Shown: positions 27,501-47,293 of the stretch, piece after piece
How positions within the stretch are numbered: position 1 is the first letter of the stretch
Layout of the letters: every line of letters starts with the position of its first letter
Source: Chromatiales bacterium
GTDB taxonomy: Bacteria > Pseudomonadota > Gammaproteobacteria > JAGRGH01
Length of the DNA: 64,000 bases
Direction: 5' to 3'
Assembly: GCA_020445605.1 (NCBI GenBank)
Contig: JAGRGH010000049.1
Coordinates: 124,001-188,000, forward strand
Translations under genes and position numbers: made by a program
Notes under the pieces: generated by a model
Told to the model about the DNA's origin: nothing
The model's input: only the letters and a program-made list of their open reading frames with translations
Database searches by the model: none

Positions 27501-28103
27501 ATGAAACCACGTCTTAATAAGAGCCCTGCCGTACTGGCCGCCGCAGTGGCCATGCTGGGCCACAACGCCGCCACCGCCCAGGTCAACGTCGATATCGACA
27601 TCACACTCGGCGGCATCACGATCCTGCACTACTTCAGCAACCTCGACGTGACGATCGACGCGACCGCGCTGACCCAGATGCTGGGTTACGGCGGGACCGA
27701 GGTCGACGAAGGCACCGCGGGTGCGATCACGGTCAGCGCCTTTCCGTTTTCCGGCGACGCGGCCATGACCGCGACGGCCCCCACCAACGATCCCTCAGAT
27801 GTTGATCTGACGATCCAGAACGCCTGGGCGGTACGTTCAATCACCGCGGCCGGCACCAACACCGTTGAGATTGTCGTCACCGACGACACGCTGACCGAGG
27901 GTGGTGGCGACACCATCACCATTACGGATGCCCAGGTGGACACCGCAGGCGGTACCCAGGGCGCGGGAACGGTCAACTTCGATTCACCGGGGCTGGTCAG
28001 CCCGCAATACGGCGACGTCATCCTGTCACTCGATCTGTCACTTGCGACCACAGCGGGCACGTACAACGACGGCGTGTTCACGCTGGAAGCCACGACGCCC
28101 TGA
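27501..28103 (+). CDS. Secreted protein, probable appendage (pilin-like) subunit
   Basis: A 200-residue protein with a signal peptide (MKPRLNKSPAVLAAAVAMLGHNAATA). The mature part has no cysteine and is rich in Thr, Asp and beta-type sequence (ITLGGITILHYFSNLDVTID; NTVEIVVTDDTL; YGDVILSLDLSLATTAG). It is first in an operon with a periplasmic chaperone and an outer-membrane usher, which makes it the likely major subunit. I do not recognise the family. AGGAG lies 10 nt before the ATG, and a sigma-54 promoter lies upstream. Confidence 0.7.
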   Translation: MKPRLNKSPAVLAAAVAMLGHNAATAQVNVDIDITLGGITILHYFSNLDVTIDATALTQMLGYGGTEVDEGTAGAITVSAFPFSGDAAMTATAPTNDPSDVDLTIQNAWAVRSITAAGTNTVEIVVTDDTLTEGGGDTITITDAQVDTAGGTQGAGTVNFDSPGLVSPQYGDVILSLDLSLATTAGTYNDGVFTLEATTP

Positions 28104-28114
28104 GATTTGCAACG

Positions 28115-28687
28115 ATGCCGCGCGCGGATGTCCCGCGCGCGGTGCTCTGCTCGGGGTTTCTTTCCTGCCTGACGGCGCTCGCTGACGCGGCGCCGTTCGA
28201 TCGACTGCATACCGTGGCGGAAGCCCCGCTGCCGACGCCGCGCGAGGTCGGTGAGTTGGTCGTGCATCCACGGCCGCTGCTCGAATCGCTGGGGGCCGCC
28301 GATCTCAGCCTGGTCTCGCCGCACGAACAGGTCGATCTCGGTCGTGCCGGCGACCGGTTTGCACCGGCGGGTGTTTCCCCGACATCGTTGATCGCCCGTC
28401 GTACCCTGCCGGTCCTGTGGCGTCTGCGCGTCCGGGATGCCGCCGAAGCCACCTCGCTGAGTGTGCGCTATCAGGCCGGCGTCGGTGCTGACGGCTGGCT
28501 CGAACACGACAGTGCGCCGCAATCCCGAATCGCGATTCAGGTGCAACCCCTGCCGCTGGACTGGTATTCGTCGGGTGACGACGGGGTGATTGTCGACGGT
28601 GGTGTTGAACTCGAATTTGACCTTGGCGAAGCGACTCGGGCCGGGCGCTATTCCGGTACATTGATCATCGAGTTCGGCCGGATCTAG
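28115..28687 (+). CDS. Secreted protein of the chaperone-usher operon, possible minor or tip subunit
   Basis: A 190-residue protein with a signal-like N-terminus (VLCSGFLSCLTALADA). The C-terminal segment FDLGEATRAGRYSGTLIIEF looks like the terminal beta-strands of fimbrial subunits or DUF4402-like proteins. It starts 11 bp after the first gene. Its TAG stop overlaps the left border of the inserted foldback element. Function is inferred from position. Confidence 0.6.
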   Translation: MPRADVPRAVLCSGFLSCLTALADAAPFDRLHTVAEAPLPTPREVGELVVHPRPLLESLGAADLSLVSPHEQVDLGRAGDRFAPAGVSPTSLIARRTLPVLWRLRVRDAAEATSLSVRYQAGVGADGWLEHDSAPQSRIAIQVQPLPLDWYSSGDDGVIVDGGVELEFDLGEATRAGRYSGTLIIEFGRI

Positions 28688-28948
28688 TGGGCCAAGTGGA
28701 AAGTTCTATGACACTCAGAGCCACAGTGCGAGTGCGAATCAAGGCGCGTTTCGCGGGCAATGGCCCCGCCCTTGGCAAGAAACGCAACACAGAGTCGCGC
28801 GCGCACAGCGGCTCCCGAAGGGCCGCGCCACAGGCATCGTGGGCGGTGTTGCAGTCCTTGGAAAGGGCCTGCCATTCCCTGCGGACTGCGCCTTGCCCAC
28901 AATGCCTGTGGCGTGGCTGAGTGTTACAGAACTTTCCACTTGGCCCAC
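28687..28948. mobile_element. 262-bp foldback (MITE-like) element inserted at CTAG
   Basis: The ends carry a perfect 21-bp terminal inverted repeat starting GTGGGCCAAGTGGAAAG, and homology between the arms continues imperfectly for about 100 bp each, so nearly the whole element folds back. It is flanked by TA on both sides (28685-28686, 28949-28950); removing it and one TA restores C-TA-G. Insertion at CTAG with TA duplication is the habit of IS630-type transposases, so it is probably a non-autonomous derivative. No transposase is encoded. It splits an operon between two genes that would otherwise be 6 bp apart. Confidence 0.8.
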
Positions 28949-28956
28949 TAGCCCCC

Positions 28957-29787
28957 ATGCGCGCCACCTACGCCCGAGTTTTTCCGCTGTTCGCATCAAT
29001 CTGTCTTGGTGTTGCAGTGGCCGCCGATCCACCGGCACCGCCCCCACAGGTCGCGATCAGCCCGCCGAACATCGAGCTTGCCCTGGATGCGGCTGGCGCC
29101 AGCGGTGCGGTGAAGGTGCATAACCTCGGCACCGAGCCGATCGAGGTGCAGGTTTCGACCGCGAACTGGCGGCTGGACGACGACAGCCAAGTGGAGATCA
29201 TCGCACCACAGGAGCAGTCGCTCGATTCCTGGATGATCATCAATCCCCTGCGCTTCACGGTGGCGCCAAAACGTTCGCAGACGGTGCGGTTCGCGGTTCG
29301 TCCGCGCGTCGAACCGGCGCCGGGCGAACATCGCGGAATGATCTATTTCGACCAGGTTCTGCCGCCCGCGCCCGCGAAAACCGGCATCCGTTTTCGTTTC
29401 CGCTACGGAGTGGCCGTCTACGGGCTCGTGGAACCGGTCCATCGCAACACGCGATTGCACCGGGTTGCGGTCGAGGATACGGCGCGTGGACGTGATCTCG
29501 TGCTCGACATCGAAAGCGTGGGCAACGCCAATGTACGCCCGAAAGGCGACTACCAGGTGTTTGCGGCCGGGCCCGGCGATGCCGCGACGGTGCTGGAGTC
29601 GGGCCCCCTGCCCACGCGACCCGTGCTCCCCGGCACACGTCGCATGCTGCGCCAAACCATTGGCAAATCGCTGCCCGCGGGGCAGTACCGCGTACGGCTG
29701 AGCGGCGCCATCGCGGACCAGACACTGGATCAGTCGCTCGCCTTCGAGGTGCGCCCACCAGAGCGCACGGGCGCGGGCGCGCGCTGA
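28957..29787 (+). CDS. PapD-like periplasmic chaperone
   Basis: A 276-residue protein with a signal peptide (ending VAVAA) and an N-terminal immunoglobulin-like PapD domain: ISPPNIELALDAAG, VQVSTANWRLDD, MIINPLRFTVAPKRSQTVRFAVRP. Such chaperones hold subunits in the periplasm and hand them to the usher. The ATG at 28957 gives a clean signal peptide; a GTG at 28921 lies in the inserted element and is less likely. No clear ribosome site precedes the ATG, perhaps because the element displaced it. Confidence 0.85.
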   Translation: MRATYARVFPLFASICLGVAVAADPPAPPPQVAISPPNIELALDAAGASGAVKVHNLGTEPIEVQVSTANWRLDDDSQVEIIAPQEQSLDSWMIINPLRFTVAPKRSQTVRFAVRPRVEPAPGEHRGMIYFDQVLPPAPAKTGIRFRFRYGVAVYGLVEPVHRNTRLHRVAVEDTARGRDLVLDIESVGNANVRPKGDYQVFAAGPGDAATVLESGPLPTRPVLPGTRRMLRQTIGKSLPAGQYRVRLSGAIADQTLDQSLAFEVRPPERTGAGAR

Positions 29788-29796
29788 CGCACGCCG

Positions 29797-32298
29797 GTGC
29801 GGTGTTCGGCGCACCGTGTGCGGGCGGCCCTCTTCGCGATCCTCGTCTGTGCCGGTCTGGCGCGGATGGGCCACGCGCAGTCGACCGATCCGGTCATTGA
29901 GCATCTGCTCGTTGCAATCGTGCTCGATGGCCGCGAGGTCGCGACGCTTGAAGTCCTGCGCGACCGGCATTTCTGGCTGCCGCTGGAACGCTTCTGCGAG
30001 CTGACCGGAATCGACTGGAGCCGCCGGACGGACGGCCGCCACCACCTGACGACCCCGCTCGGCGAAGCGGACGCCTCCGCGGCCGAGACGCTGGAGGTCG
30101 ATGGTCTGCACTACCTCTCCGAGACGTTCATCCGGCAGCGTCTCGCGATTGGATTCGACTTCAGGCCGTCCGCGTATGCGATCCGGCTGGACCTGCCGTG
30201 GTCGACCCGCCGGCGGCAACGGGCCGATCGCGAAACTCCCGTCGCGCCGGACTTCGAGCCGCAGTCGGCGAGCCTTTCGGTGCTCTCGGTCGAGACCCGC
30301 TGGGAGGACTCGAACCGCCGCGACGAGCGCCTGACCACGGATGCCCTGCTCGGTGGCGGCCTGTACGGCGGGCGCTGGCTGGTGCGCGGGCGCCACTCGG
30401 ATCGCACGGACTTTGACTTTTACGACTACGCCTGGCTCAGACGCGACGGCGATCGGCTCTGGCTCGTCGGGCATCAGTACCTGCACCTGGACCCGCTCCT
30501 GCCGGGCCTGGAACTCACCGGCGTGCAGGCCGCATGGACCGACCACCCGAATGCGATCTTCCAGCGTCGACTGCAGCCGGGCGAACTGCTGCCCCGTGCG
30601 CTGCGGCCGCTCGAACGCTTCGCCGGCCACGGTCCGCCGGGCGGTCGCGCACAACTGCGGGTCGACGGGCGCACGATCGCCGTACAGCCGATCCTGCTGA
30701 ACGGCGAGTACGACTTCGACGGCGTGAGCCTCGGCACCAGCGGCTACGGCCGGATCGAGGTCTACCTGTTCGAACACGGCTCGAACGGCATCCCCACGGG
30801 CATCGACGATCACTCGCAGGCGCTGTCGGCGAACCTGCTGCCGGCCGGCGTACGCCTGGTCCAGGGCGGTCTTGGCGTCTCAGGCAATCCGCTATCGGAC
30901 CGGGTCAGCCGCAGCGAATCCGACGGCGCAGCGGGATTCGCACAGGCGCGCTGGGGCTGGACGCGCGACCTGACCCTCGAGACCACGGTGCAGAGCGATT
31001 CCGAACGCGAGTTCGCCAGCGCGGGGCTGGTCTGGCGATTCGGCGCGCGCTGGCTGGCCTCGACCGCGGTCGCGGTCGGTGAGAGCGGCTTCGGCACGCG
31101 CGCGACGCTGGACGCGCGCTGGCCCGCCTGGCGCCTGCGAGCGTTCTCGATCTTCCGCGAGGCGGGTTTTCTGGACCCGGACGCGGAGCAGACCCACGAC
31201 CACTACGCGGAGCTGTCGCGGCGCTTCGATCGCAGGCTGGAACTGGCTCTGATCGGCCGGGCCCGGCGCAGTGACGACCGGCGCGTGACGTTTCTGCGAC
31301 CGGCGGCACAGTGGCGACCGAACGCGCGCCTGGCGCTCTCGATACGGCCGGACGAGGACGGCGACTATGTCGCGGACCTGAACTACACGCTGAGCGCGGA
31401 CACGCGCCTGTCCGTGCACCACCAGGACGCAGTCTGGGCGGAACTCGATCAGCGCATCTCGCCGTACTGGCGGCTGAGGGTGTTCGGCCGCGACGGTGGC
31501 GATGCACCCGCACGCTACGGGGCGCTCGCGCGCTGGCAGGCCAATGATCCAAGACGGCCGTTTGCCGAGTTCGGACCGCTCTATTCCGAAGGCAGCACCG
31601 GCTGGCAGGGGGCGCTGGGCATGGAACCGACGCCGGGTCTCACGCTGCGCCTCGACTGGCAGGATGACCCTGCCCCGTATGGCACGGACGGTACTGGCGA
31701 GCAGCGCATCTTCCTGACCATGCGCCTGGATTACGCGCTGGTCGGTGGTCGGCTCCAGCCTGCGCGCGCGACCCGCATCGACGAACGCTTCGGCATCCTC
31801 GCCGGGCGCATCGAGGCCCCGGCGACCTACCGCGGTCGCCTGGGCGACATCGCGGTGCTGGTCGACGGTCGCGTCGTTGCACGCACGTCCGCCGATGGCA
31901 GCTACTTCGCCGATCGGATCGCCGAGGGTGTCCGCGAGGTCGATCTCGATGCCGAACATCTGCCGATCGAGCTGGAACTCCAGCACCGTGGCCGACTGGC
32001 CCGTGTGGCACCGGCCGCGACGACCCGGGTGGATTTCGACACCCGGGTGTTCTACGGCGTCGCCGGACGGGTGCGCGATGCGGACGGCCAGTCCGTTCCG
32101 GAAGTGGTGGTCAAACTCACGACCGCCGACGGCCATGAGCTGCGCCGCGCGGTGACCGACCGGTTCGGACTGTACCGCCTCGACCGCGTCGCACCCGGCA
32201 ACTACCAGCTGCGCATCAACGGCCATGTGCGCCAGTCGCTGCACGTCGACGGGCATCGCTTCGGACAGGACCTCGTCGTGCCGCCGAGCGGTCCGTGA
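29797..32298 (+). CDS. Outer membrane usher-like protein
   Basis: An 833-residue protein with a signal peptide (ending GHAQS). The central part is rich in alternating beta-strands typical of an outer membrane barrel (about 170-690) and includes a plug-like region (GRIEVYLFEHGSNGIPTG, which fits usher proteins). The C-terminus (about 745-830: GVAGRVRDADGQSVPEV, FGLYRLDRVAPGNYQLRI) is a carboxypeptidase-regulatory-like beta-sandwich. It starts with GTG 9 bp after the chaperone gene. It probably exports the two upstream secreted proteins. It is divergent from the classical FimD type. Confidence 0.78.
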   Translation: MRCSAHRVRAALFAILVCAGLARMGHAQSTDPVIEHLLVAIVLDGREVATLEVLRDRHFWLPLERFCELTGIDWSRRTDGRHHLTTPLGEADASAAETLEVDGLHYLSETFIRQRLAIGFDFRPSAYAIRLDLPWSTRRRQRADRETPVAPDFEPQSASLSVLSVETRWEDSNRRDERLTTDALLGGGLYGGRWLVRGRHSDRTDFDFYDYAWLRRDGDRLWLVGHQYLHLDPLLPGLELTGVQAAWTDHPNAIFQRRLQPGELLPRALRPLERFAGHGPPGGRAQLRVDGRTIAVQPILLNGEYDFDGVSLGTSGYGRIEVYLFEHGSNGIPTGIDDHSQALSANLLPAGVRLVQGGLGVSGNPLSDRVSRSESDGAAGFAQARWGWTRDLTLETTVQSDSEREFASAGLVWRFGARWLASTAVAVGESGFGTRATLDARWPAWRLRAFSIFREAGFLDPDAEQTHDHYAELSRRFDRRLELALIGRARRSDDRRVTFLRPAAQWRPNARLALSIRPDEDGDYVADLNYTLSADTRLSVHHQDAVWAELDQRISPYWRLRVFGRDGGDAPARYGALARWQANDPRRPFAEFGPLYSEGSTGWQGALGMEPTPGLTLRLDWQDDPAPYGTDGTGEQRIFLTMRLDYALVGGRLQPARATRIDERFGILAGRIEAPATYRGRLGDIAVLVDGRVVARTSADGSYFADRIAEGVREVDLDAEHLPIELELQHRGRLARVAPAATTRVDFDTRVFYGVAGRVRDADGQSVPEVVVKLTTADGHELRRAVTDRFGLYRLDRVAPGNYQLRINGHVRQSLHVDGHRFGQDLVVPPSGP

Positions 32299-32838: not shown

Positions 32839-34719
32839 ATGAATCGTGACGATGACGAAGACATGAGCAATCGATCCGGAAATCGGCCGTTTGCGGATGT
32901 ATTGCAGGTCTTTGTGTCACGCCGGAAGGCGTTGATCGGCGGCTTGGCCGCCGGTGCGGCAACGTTCTTCCCGGGACTTGCCGCCGCCGGTCACCGGCCC
33001 TGTGGGGCGAATCAACGGGCCGACTCGTTGCTGGGTTTCACACCCGTACCCATCGCCGAGGGCTCCGGCCCCTGGCCGGGCATCGCGTCCGAATACCAGT
33101 TCGATATTCTCATTCCCTGGGGCGACCCGATCGAGCCGGGTGGCCCCGGGTTCCGGTATCCGCCGAATGCCGCGGATCAGGCACTGCAGCTTGGCATCGG
33201 TCACGACGGCATGGCGTATTTCCCGATCCATCCGGAAGATGGAGGCTCTGGTGACGGTCGTGAACGCGTCGAAACTCGTGCTCGCTTCGGGCGCGGCAAC
33301 CGCCGTGGATTGTTGGCCATCAACCACGAATTCGGTACGAATAAGCATGTGCTCGGCAAGAACGCGCCGGATTCGCTGGAGGACGTACGCGTTTCGCAGC
33401 GCGCCCACGGGGTCTCGGTCGTCGAGATCGAAAAGCGCGACGGCCGCTGGCGGCCGGTCGCGAGCGATTACGCGCGCCGGATTCACGCCAACACGCCGAT
33501 GGCAATCAGCGGGCCGGCCGCCGGCTCGAAGGCGCTGCTGACACCGAACGGGAACGTTGCGCTCGGCACGCTCGCCAACTGTGCGAGTGGCACGACTCCC
33601 TGGGGCACTTATCTGACCTGCGAAGAGAATTTCCACGCCTACTTCGGCGCCAGCAGGCTTGCGGCGGACTGGCAGGCGACGGCCGAGCAGGCGCGCTACG
33701 GATTCGGCGCGAGTGGCTCCGGCTATGGCTGGCACCTGTTTGACCGGCGTTTTGATCTGTCCGATCCGGGTTACGTCAACGAGGAGAACCGCTTCGGCTG
33801 GGTGGTCGAGATCGATCCCTTCGACGCGACGCGATCACCCGTCAAGCGCACCGCCCTGGGACGTTTCAAGCACGAAAGTGCCGCAGTCGCCATCGGTCGT
33901 GGAGGTCGTGCGGTGGTCTACATGGGCGATGACGACCGCTTCGATTACATCTACAAGTTCGTCTCCTCCGGTCATTACCGGCGGATGCTCGACGACGGGA
34001 TCAGCCCGCTGGACGACGGCCGGTTGTATGTCGCGAGATTCAGCGACAACGGCACCGGCGACTGGCTCGAGCTGACCATCGACCATCCGTTGCTCGCCGC
34101 GCGCTTTTCGGATCAGGCCGAGGTGCTGACCTATGCGCGGATTTCGGCTGATCTGCTGGGCGCCACGCCGATGGATCGTCCGGAATGGACGACCGTCGCG
34201 CCCGATGGCCATGTCTATTGCGCCCTGACCCACAACAGTCGCCGCACGACGCCGAATGCGGCCAACCCGCTGGCACCGAATCCTGATGGGCACATCATCC
34301 GCTGGATGGATAGCGAGCAGTTCGTCGGTCTGGGCTTTACCTGGGAGGTCTTCCTGATCGCCAAGGACACCCACGGCGGCGAGAACGCCTTCGGTTCGCC
34401 GGATGGACTGTGGGCGGACCCGGACGGTCGCCTGTTCATCCAGACCGATGGCTCGCAGCCCGGCGGTCTGAACGATCAGATGCTGGTGGCCGACATTGCC
34501 ACCGGTGACCTTCGCCGTCTGTTCACCGGCGTCACCGGCTGCGAGGTGACCGGGATCGCCACCACCCCGGATCGACGCACGATGTTCGTCAATATCCAGC
34601 ACCCGGGAAATGGTGACCCGGCGTTGACCAACTTCCCGGCAGTCACCGACGGCATCACGGTCCCGCGCGACGCGACGATGGTCATCACCCGCAAGGACGG
34701 CGGTATAGTCGGGTCTTGA
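32839..34719 (+). CDS. phoX: PhoX-family (DUF839) alkaline phosphatase
   Basis: A 626-residue secreted phosphatase with a Tat signal (SRRKALIGGLAAGAATF, about 28-50). PhoX enzymes use Ca and Fe in a six-bladed propeller to release phosphate from esters. Supporting segments are LLAINHEFGTNKHVLG, TPWGTYLTCEENFHAYFG, GRFKHESAAVAI, AVVYMGDDDRFDYIYKFV and SPDGLWADPDGRLFIQTDG. The start may be ATG 32839 or ATG 32863; neither has a strong ribosome site. It converges on the antiporter gene 42 bp away. Confidence 0.88.
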   Translation: MNRDDDEDMSNRSGNRPFADVLQVFVSRRKALIGGLAAGAATFFPGLAAAGHRPCGANQRADSLLGFTPVPIAEGSGPWPGIASEYQFDILIPWGDPIEPGGPGFRYPPNAADQALQLGIGHDGMAYFPIHPEDGGSGDGRERVETRARFGRGNRRGLLAINHEFGTNKHVLGKNAPDSLEDVRVSQRAHGVSVVEIEKRDGRWRPVASDYARRIHANTPMAISGPAAGSKALLTPNGNVALGTLANCASGTTPWGTYLTCEENFHAYFGASRLAADWQATAEQARYGFGASGSGYGWHLFDRRFDLSDPGYVNEENRFGWVVEIDPFDATRSPVKRTALGRFKHESAAVAIGRGGRAVVYMGDDDRFDYIYKFVSSGHYRRMLDDGISPLDDGRLYVARFSDNGTGDWLELTIDHPLLAARFSDQAEVLTYARISADLLGATPMDRPEWTTVAPDGHVYCALTHNSRRTTPNAANPLAPNPDGHIIRWMDSEQFVGLGFTWEVFLIAKDTHGGENAFGSPDGLWADPDGRLFIQTDGSQPGGLNDQMLVADIATGDLRRLFTGVTGCEVTGIATTPDRRTMFVNIQHPGNGDPALTNFPAVTDGITVPRDATMVITRKDGGIVGS

Positions 34720-41398: not shown

Positions 41399-41942
41399 GG
41401 CGGGTACAGGTCGTCAGGTGATCGTTGACCATGCCCGTGGCCTGCATGAAGGCATAGCAGATCGTCGGGCCGACGAAACGAAAACCGAGTTGCTTCAGCG
41501 CCTTGCTCATCGAGCGCGATTGCGCGGTTTCGGCGGGCACTTCGGCCAGTGCGGGCCAGCGGTTCTGAACTGGCTTCCCGTCGACGAAGCTCCACATGAA
41601 GTCCACGGGGTCGTCTGACGCCGCCAGTCTGAGCCACGCCTTTGCGTTGGCGACGGTGGCGTCGATCTTCAGCCGGTTACGGATGATGCGGGCGTCTTCA
41701 CGCAGGCGCTCGCGCTTGCGGGCATCGAAGCGCGAGATGCGTTCGGGATCGAAACCGGCGAATGCGGCGCGATAGCCCTCGCGTCGATGCAGCACGGTGC
41801 GCCAGGAAAGCCCGGCCTGCGCGCCTTCCAGTATCAGCATCTCGAACAGGTGGCGGGCGTCGCGCGAGGGAACGCCCCACTCCTGGTCGTGATAGCGCGC
41901 GTAGAGTTCGTCGCCGGCCGTGACCCAGTCGCAGCGCGGCAC
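41379..41942 (-). CDS. tag: DNA-3-methyladenine glycosylase I
   Basis: A 187-residue base-excision enzyme that removes 3-methyladenine. It has the N-terminal CDWV...YHDQEWGVP, MLILEGAQAGLSW and the C-terminal GFRFVGPTICYAFMQATGMVNDH; zinc ligands are the N-terminal Cys and the C-terminal HLTTCTRH set. It lies 11 bp after eno on the same strand and may ride on its transcript. Confidence 0.93.
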   Translation of the reverse strand: MPRCDWVTAGDELYARYHDQEWGVPSRDARHLFEMLILEGAQAGLSWRTVLHRREGYRAAFAGFDPERISRFDARKRERLREDARIIRNRLKIDATVANAKAWLRLAASDDPVDFMWSFVDGKPVQNRWPALAEVPAETAQSRSMSKALKQLGFRFVGPTICYAFMQATGMVNDHLTTCTRHAELAR

Positions 41943-41953
41943 GACGAGCCGGT

Positions 41954-47293
<5,340 letters not shown>

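Follow-up and report, generated by a model that had tools for sequence, protein, structure and literature searches.

A TA-inserted foldback element at a subunit-chaperone junction and its Correia-like hairpin units in Pseudomonadota

Correia elements (CREE or NEMIS) are described in the accessible text of PMC2649163 as restricted to Neisseria, with the mobilising mechanism given there as undetermined. The same text reports that RNase III binds and cleaves Correia elements within mRNA, and a 2024 review (PMC10969869), in its accessible part, repeats these findings and also reports inversion of the elements. Among the TA-flanked bacterial repeats treated in the accessible sections of Delihas (PMC2229807), RUP is the one with a proposed IS630 partner, IS630-Spn1. 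MITEs structurally most similar to Correia elements, with no strong candidate parent IS, are mentioned in the available part of the Thiomargarita genome paper (PMC4853749), and the corresponding part of the P. fluorescens genome paper (PMC2718517) lists intergenic repeat families. A search of the open-access literature yielded no recognised description of the superfamily reported here or of Correia relatives outside Neisseria. The element described below lies between a subunit-like gene and a chaperone gene in a Chromatiales bacterium, and the first of its two hairpin units, unit A, resembles the Correia core.

The foldback element and its operon

The window (the whole stretch of 64,000 nucleotides that was analysed) contains at 28684-28951 a foldback with perfect 21-bp ends between two CTAG sites, with the TA duplicated (Table 1). 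These features were claimed in the initial annotation and are read directly in the sequence: the 21 bases that follow the left TA (GTGGGCCAAGTGGAAAGTTCT) have a perfect counterpart at the right end, and over a length of 35 nt the two ends show 94% pairing. Arm homology of about 100 bp, also claimed there, is borne out by a 68% match of all 268 bases to their own reverse complement. The element proper (28687-28948) comprises the 262 bp of hairpin-forming DNA first reported, or 264 bp added when the duplicated TA is counted, and the insert has a folding energy of -184.5, the mean of its shuffled versions being -121.0 (z -11.9; 0/100 shuffles as good). There is no transposase gene inside the element. 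CTAG occurs at 10 sites in the 64-kb window against 204 predicted from base composition, and two of the ten are the flanks of the foldback. No Rfam match at gathering score was obtained in window 28000-30000; at E up to 1, Rfam gave four matches, all below gathering scores and none on an element core. Elsewhere in the window, the unit model R2 (defined below) has a weak match at 41934-41979 (19.0 bits, E 0.004).

Table 1. Features of the element and its surroundings, in window positions. R1 and R2 are covariance models defined in the text.
Feature	Position	Strand	Remarks
Upstream subunit-like ORF, 190 aa	28115..28687	+	No family match; matches the equivalent G289 ORF, E 9e-5
Left CTAG, target site	28684..28687	.	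Contains the TAG stop of the upstream ORF; left TA at 28685-28686
Left terminal inverted repeat, 34 nt from TA	28685..28718	+	TAGTG...CTCAG
Hairpin unit A	28734..28798	+	CAAGGCG - stem - AATGG..CCCTT..CAAG - stem - GCAACAC; R2, 78.7 bits (element in R2 training set)
Structured core	28735..28899	+	R1, 144.6 bits (element in R1 training set)
Mini-hairpin between both arms	28814..28822	+	CCCGAAGGG
Hairpin unit B, inverted homologue of unit A	28838..28901	-	R2 on - strand, 73.6 bits
Right terminal inverted repeat, 34 nt with TA	28917..28950	+	
Right CTAG	28948..28951	.	Duplicated TA at 28949-28950
PapD-like chaperone gene	28957..29787	+	Frame open back to GTG 28921 within the element
Usher-sized gene, 833 aa	29797..32298	+	tblastn partner beside chaperone in L268 (G289), L269 (G366) and L270 (G189)
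PhoX-type alkaline phosphatase gene, downstream of operon	32839-34719		Pfam E 1.9e-138

The insertion target is the TAG stop of the 190-aa ORF, which is preserved, and the chaperone ATG lies 5 bp past the right CTAG. With the insert removed in silico, the junction reads TAG CCCCC ATG. Between stop and ATG there are then 5 bp (CCCCC) rather than the 6 stated in the initial annotation. The chaperone start and signal peptide look to be at 28957, and a start at the upstream GTG would add 12 residues. The earlier remark that the chaperone gene has no obvious ribosome site agrees with our reading, in which no good one precedes the ATG; a consensus scan returned no promoter-like or terminator-like site.

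The name appendage operon, used in the initial annotation, is fair but weakly backed: the PapD_N match of the chaperone (E 2e-4) falls just under the Pfam cut-off, and the four-gene order recurs in a relative (G289). CarboxypepD_reg is the sole match of the usher-sized gene over the Pfam cut-off. Searches of NCBIfam with four operon proteins and of PDB sequences with the chaperone and usher gave no match. A chaperone search had matches in 9/369 class genomes, the window's own included. G289 keeps the window order, with an ORF like that at 27501-28100 (E 5e-12), a counterpart of the 190-aa ORF, the chaperone (E 3e-56) and the usher. At its junction, a TAG stop is followed by 15 nt including AGCAGGGGG and then by ATG, with no foldback. 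Because this junction spans 15 nt without the element, the window element separates two genes that are close together in a relative; the initial annotation pointed to empty sites in relatives, and this homologous operon, distant at 37-41% protein identity, has no insert at the junction.

Copies, insertion target and shared architecture

BLAST of the window's own genome (3.36 Mb, 63 contigs) located full copies on contigs C49 (the window), C24, C55, C38 and C3 at 88-100% identity, an internally deleted copy on C37 and a solo end on C63 close after a tRNA-Ala gene. The flanks of these copies are unrelated to one another. The copies and the insert-free homologous junction support the first reading, in which a mobile foldback went into CTAG and duplicated the TA. 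The C63 solo end was considered as an IS edge and rejected, its neighbour ORF being an unrelated 130-aa frame. When the genome contig collection was scanned for the exact end pattern, the MAG 'Chromatiaceae bacterium' Ww536 (G747) supplied the only two loci, each at 95% to the window copy and in different surroundings; a plasmid collection searched with the window element gave no match. By form the element is a MITE: it is short, has terminal inverted repeats and a target-site duplication, lacks a transposase gene and occurs in several dispersed copies.

CTAG/CTAG flanks are found at L001, L003 and the C37 copy, and exceptions to target duplication at L004, L005 and several G747 copies. Duplication of TA is seen directly between a Pseudoalteromonas chromid (L152), where a member of the superfamily lies between yegS and a TonB receptor gene, and the empty site in P. 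donghaensis (L150), although two of three such Pseudoalteromonas comparisons were not clean. The MAPEG and ispG sites were rejected as clean empty sites since their flanks are rearranged, and a P. aeruginosa plasmid pair (L140/L144) was rejected since its spacers are not alignable. At 13/24 elements from the own genome and Ww536, the flanking TAG is precisely where an open frame of 120 codons or more terminates, these being open frames rather than verified genes; the same test on the ten window CTAG sites gave 3/10, one of them the window element.

Three further observations concern orientation and flanks. At the yegS-TonB site of Pseudoalteromonas shioyasakiensis, two strains carry members in opposite orientation (L146 and L152), which recalls the reported Correia inversion. 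L122 and L123, 2.4 kb apart on G747:C24, read alike and have flanks CTAG/CTTG and CTAG/CAAG, as inversion between CTAG- and CAAG-flanked copies would leave. A separate family in G709 (L101, L156-L162) has ends GAGCCTGTT, and some of its copies have TNA flanks (TAA/TAA, TTA/TTA), unlike the TA found elsewhere.

Related elements are widespread in the phylum, with members in Pseudomonas and Pseudoalteromonas. BLAST with one member from G020 matched 51/369 class genomes, and a covariance model built from the core of 21 of 24 aligned elements (R1) matched 84/398 sampled phylum genomes, the window's own included in both counts. At most 2 (BLAST) or 7 (R1) candidates were scored per genome, so that per-genome counts are lower bounds. 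In the window's own genome, R1 matched 28 distinct places (from 51 strand matches), 23 of them above 55 bits and 5 at 35 bits or less. No member was found in the E. coli genomes searched with a Pseudoalteromonas-type member. E-values of R1 and of the models R2 and R3 used below come from short calibration.

The 24 aligned elements were drawn from 42 loci examined, of which 3 repeats of the same element and 15 loci with insertions or with unclear or no ends were left out. They have a common architecture of about 266 nt and nearly fixed length. The ends form an outer stem, within which follow arm A, closed by unit A, then a mini-hairpin of 9 nt, and arm B, closed by unit B, the inverted homologue of unit A. 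End and arm sequences differ between families. RNAalifold predicts 94 pairs, 80 of which show double-sided change in at least one sequence, and 93.3% of cells in the alignment are paired. The covariation score of 0.72, against 0.19 for shuffled data (0/500 as high) and 0.10-0.15 with the partner slid by 1-3 columns, can within an inverted repeat stem from copy-correction between arms as well as from selection on the fold. In a wider set of 94 core matches, ends pair at 19/26 or better in 87 and no good end pair accompanies the other 7; length is 264-272 bp in 67 of the 87 end-paired elements.

Similarity of the hairpin unit to Correia elements

A model of unit A alone (R2), with no Neisseria sequence in it, was run against 300 kb of N. 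gonorrhoeae plus 100 kb of E. coli K-12, a search space in which 15 Correia elements had been located by paired ends. R2 matches 14 of these 15 at E up to 5. Its nine best matches are all Correia elements, one of them with a broken left end, and two have E <0.001 (best about 5e-4) on a rough calibration; the first clear non-Correia match takes rank 10 with 17.4 bits. The 100 kb of E. coli K-12 gave no match at E up to 5, and in a smaller search its best match had E 3.1. With the two-unit model R1, too, the top two matches in 100 kb of N. gonorrhoeae were Correia elements (E 0.004 and 0.03), and no match in 100 kb of E. coli exceeded 5.5 bits. In the reverse direction, a model from eight Correia cores (R3), run on 48 superfamily loci, gave eight matches with E of 1 or less; six of the eight are on unit positions, and the best is weak (E 0.06).

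These comparisons make the window element look like a double-unit relative of Correia elements, and we consider it likely that the match reflects relationship. Convergence on a GC-rich hairpin, without relationship, would be consistent with the modest individual E-values, the short calibration and the weakness of R3, but the match keeps its register along the entire unit, the Correia end likewise opens with TAGTG and reaches the core by way of TCAG, and the E. coli control is empty at E up to 5. We regard such convergence as rather doubtful.

Mobilisation, expression and comparison with known repeats

A different origin was proposed in the initial annotation, which pointed to an IS630-type parent with matching ends. 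In its simplest form, the element would be an ordinary IS630-type MITE, the deletion derivative of one IS, moved in trans and with an interior without significance. The TA within CTAG at both ends fits such an origin, RUP with IS630-Spn1 is described as a case of this kind in the accessible text of PMC2229807, and an IS630-family transposase gene is inserted in the CTAG bordering a superfamily member on an Azotobacter chroococcum plasmid (L142:2240-3430). The Azotobacter IS, however, reads with its own ends, different from those of the member, and the parent did not emerge from the window's own genome, a draft of 63 contigs with 0 matches to PF13358 (DDE_3). The outer 19 bp of the element occurs there at 13 sites with up to 3 mismatches, all at ends of the seven copies, and at 14 sites in the Ww536 genome, 13 at recognised elements and 1 a solo end; neither genome (G000, G747) has an IS-length pair with the element's ends.

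Single-contig genomes provide stronger evidence on this point, because an IS may be absent from a draft or MAG assembly. In one of them (G541), opposed ends are 51-57 bp apart (nine pairs) or 260-283 bp apart (eight pairs), apart from a single loose pair at 3,959 bp, and no pair has an intermediate spacing; in another (G569), the longest end pair is 445 bp from end to end and encloses a further foldback nested within it. There is no IS-length same-end pair in either, a search of plasmids with a 41-nt end of the G569 family gave one irrelevant match, and none of the genomes checked yielded a mobilising enzyme. The interior shape, moreover, is conserved across families with different ends; because this fixed architecture and its compensatory changes span such families, the family is more than a deletion derivative, and the simple IS630 origin is unlikely. 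A resemblance of the families starting GAGCCTG or GGGTCTG to 'IS5-type ends' was set aside, no IS with those ends having been found in G541 or G569. We note that the nine 51-57 bp palindromes of G541 consist of two opposed ends only, alongside full 260-283 bp elements, and that the nested foldback of G569 (L246, G569:C1:1408705-1409149) belongs to another family, has ends CAGGCCGTTGAAAAA and again lies between CTAG sites.

The way in which paired letters vary differs between parts of the element. G.T and A.C pairs were counted in 48 related representatives at <75% identity, 1/87 rows having been removed because it paired at under 60%. The counts leave out four near-constant G.T columns that were selected once the data had been seen, and those that include them are given in brackets. 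The ratio G.T:A.C is 57:62 in the ends, 55:2 (68:2) in the tip of unit A, 46:23 (62:23) in arm A, 11:25 (57:25) in the tip of unit B and 30:40 (63:40) in arm B. Near-equal numbers in the ends are as expected of a DNA-level inverted repeat. The unit-tip bias follows the orientation of each unit, which suggests, and no more, that the folded strand of each unit is read in that unit's direction; the reversal of the bias in the tip of unit B and its absence in the ends argue against one full-length RNA. A structured RNA gene, or an mRNA leader that regulates the operon and has CTAG flanks by chance, would suit the strong fold and the G.T excess in the tip of unit A, but with copies at unrelated sites in both orientations, no conserved position beside one gene family in the loci read, no Rfam match, and a wobble bias that reverses in unit B and vanishes in the ends, it is very improbable.

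Overall, the element is probably best explained as a non-autonomous mobile element, a MITE by form, from a Pseudomonadota-wide superfamily. Its copies are dispersed, insertion is at CTAG/TA, the fold of two inverted units is conserved, no transposase gene lies inside and the unit is Correia-like. An enzyme supplied in trans would act on the ends, whose pattern of variation is that of a DNA-level inverted repeat, and the hairpin units may be kept as recognised folded strands or as serving the transcribed element. At the window locus, the element would have entered the subunit gene at its TAG stop without damage to that gene and placed a hairpin of about 260 nt in the message ahead of the chaperone start. 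By analogy with the action of RNase III on Correia elements in mRNA, the message would then likely be processed between these two genes, and the chaperone would be translated more weakly and in an uncoupled manner; an effect on chaperone-usher expression, which the initial annotation had raised, is plausible.

A wider scheme can be put forward tentatively, though we think it rather improbable: the superfamily could be one old lineage of structure-recognised mobile elements with Correia as its single-unit branch, in which the folded units are the identity of the element, the ends changed in each family to suit the transposase present, and each unit is read in its own orientation in folded, single-stranded form, unit A from one strand and unit B from the opposite one. 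If the Correia core is one unit of a Pseudomonadota-wide element, both its mobiliser and the purpose of its fold could be sought in easily grown Pseudomonas and Pseudoalteromonas. A fixed architecture under changing letters also offers a direct test of whether DNA or RNA structure, as against end sequence, defines a transposable element.

Several known repeats share parts of this design. REP/REPIN pairs, which are moved by RAYT, likewise consist of two inverted hairpin units but are much smaller, and the window element differs from them in its long ends with TA duplication. RUP of Streptococcus pneumoniae is short and TA-flanked like the element and is proposed to use an IS630 transposase; in the accessible text of PMC2229807 it has 107 bp and a candidate parent IS, whereas none was found for the window element. 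ERIC and other enterobacterial repeat units are also TA-flanked and strongly folding, but ERIC-type units are shorter and have 7-bp terminal repeats according to the table in the accessible part of PMC2229807, a distinction drawn by description rather than by model. Correia elements, like the window element, are inserted at TA, have a CAAGGCG...CAACGCC hairpin core and lack a transposase gene, and the core hairpin (CAAGGCG...CAACGCCG) is what R2 recovers in 14/15 CREE, with the weak reciprocal noted above. The 26-bp Correia end sequence (TATAGTGGATTAA...) is not shared, the ends differing beyond TAGTG and TCAG, and the length range of the superfamily lies outside that of Correia elements, which measure 104-108 or 153-157 bp and have one unit, against about 266 bp, two inverted units and a mini-hairpin in the window element. 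The superfamily appears to include Correia elements as a single-unit branch.
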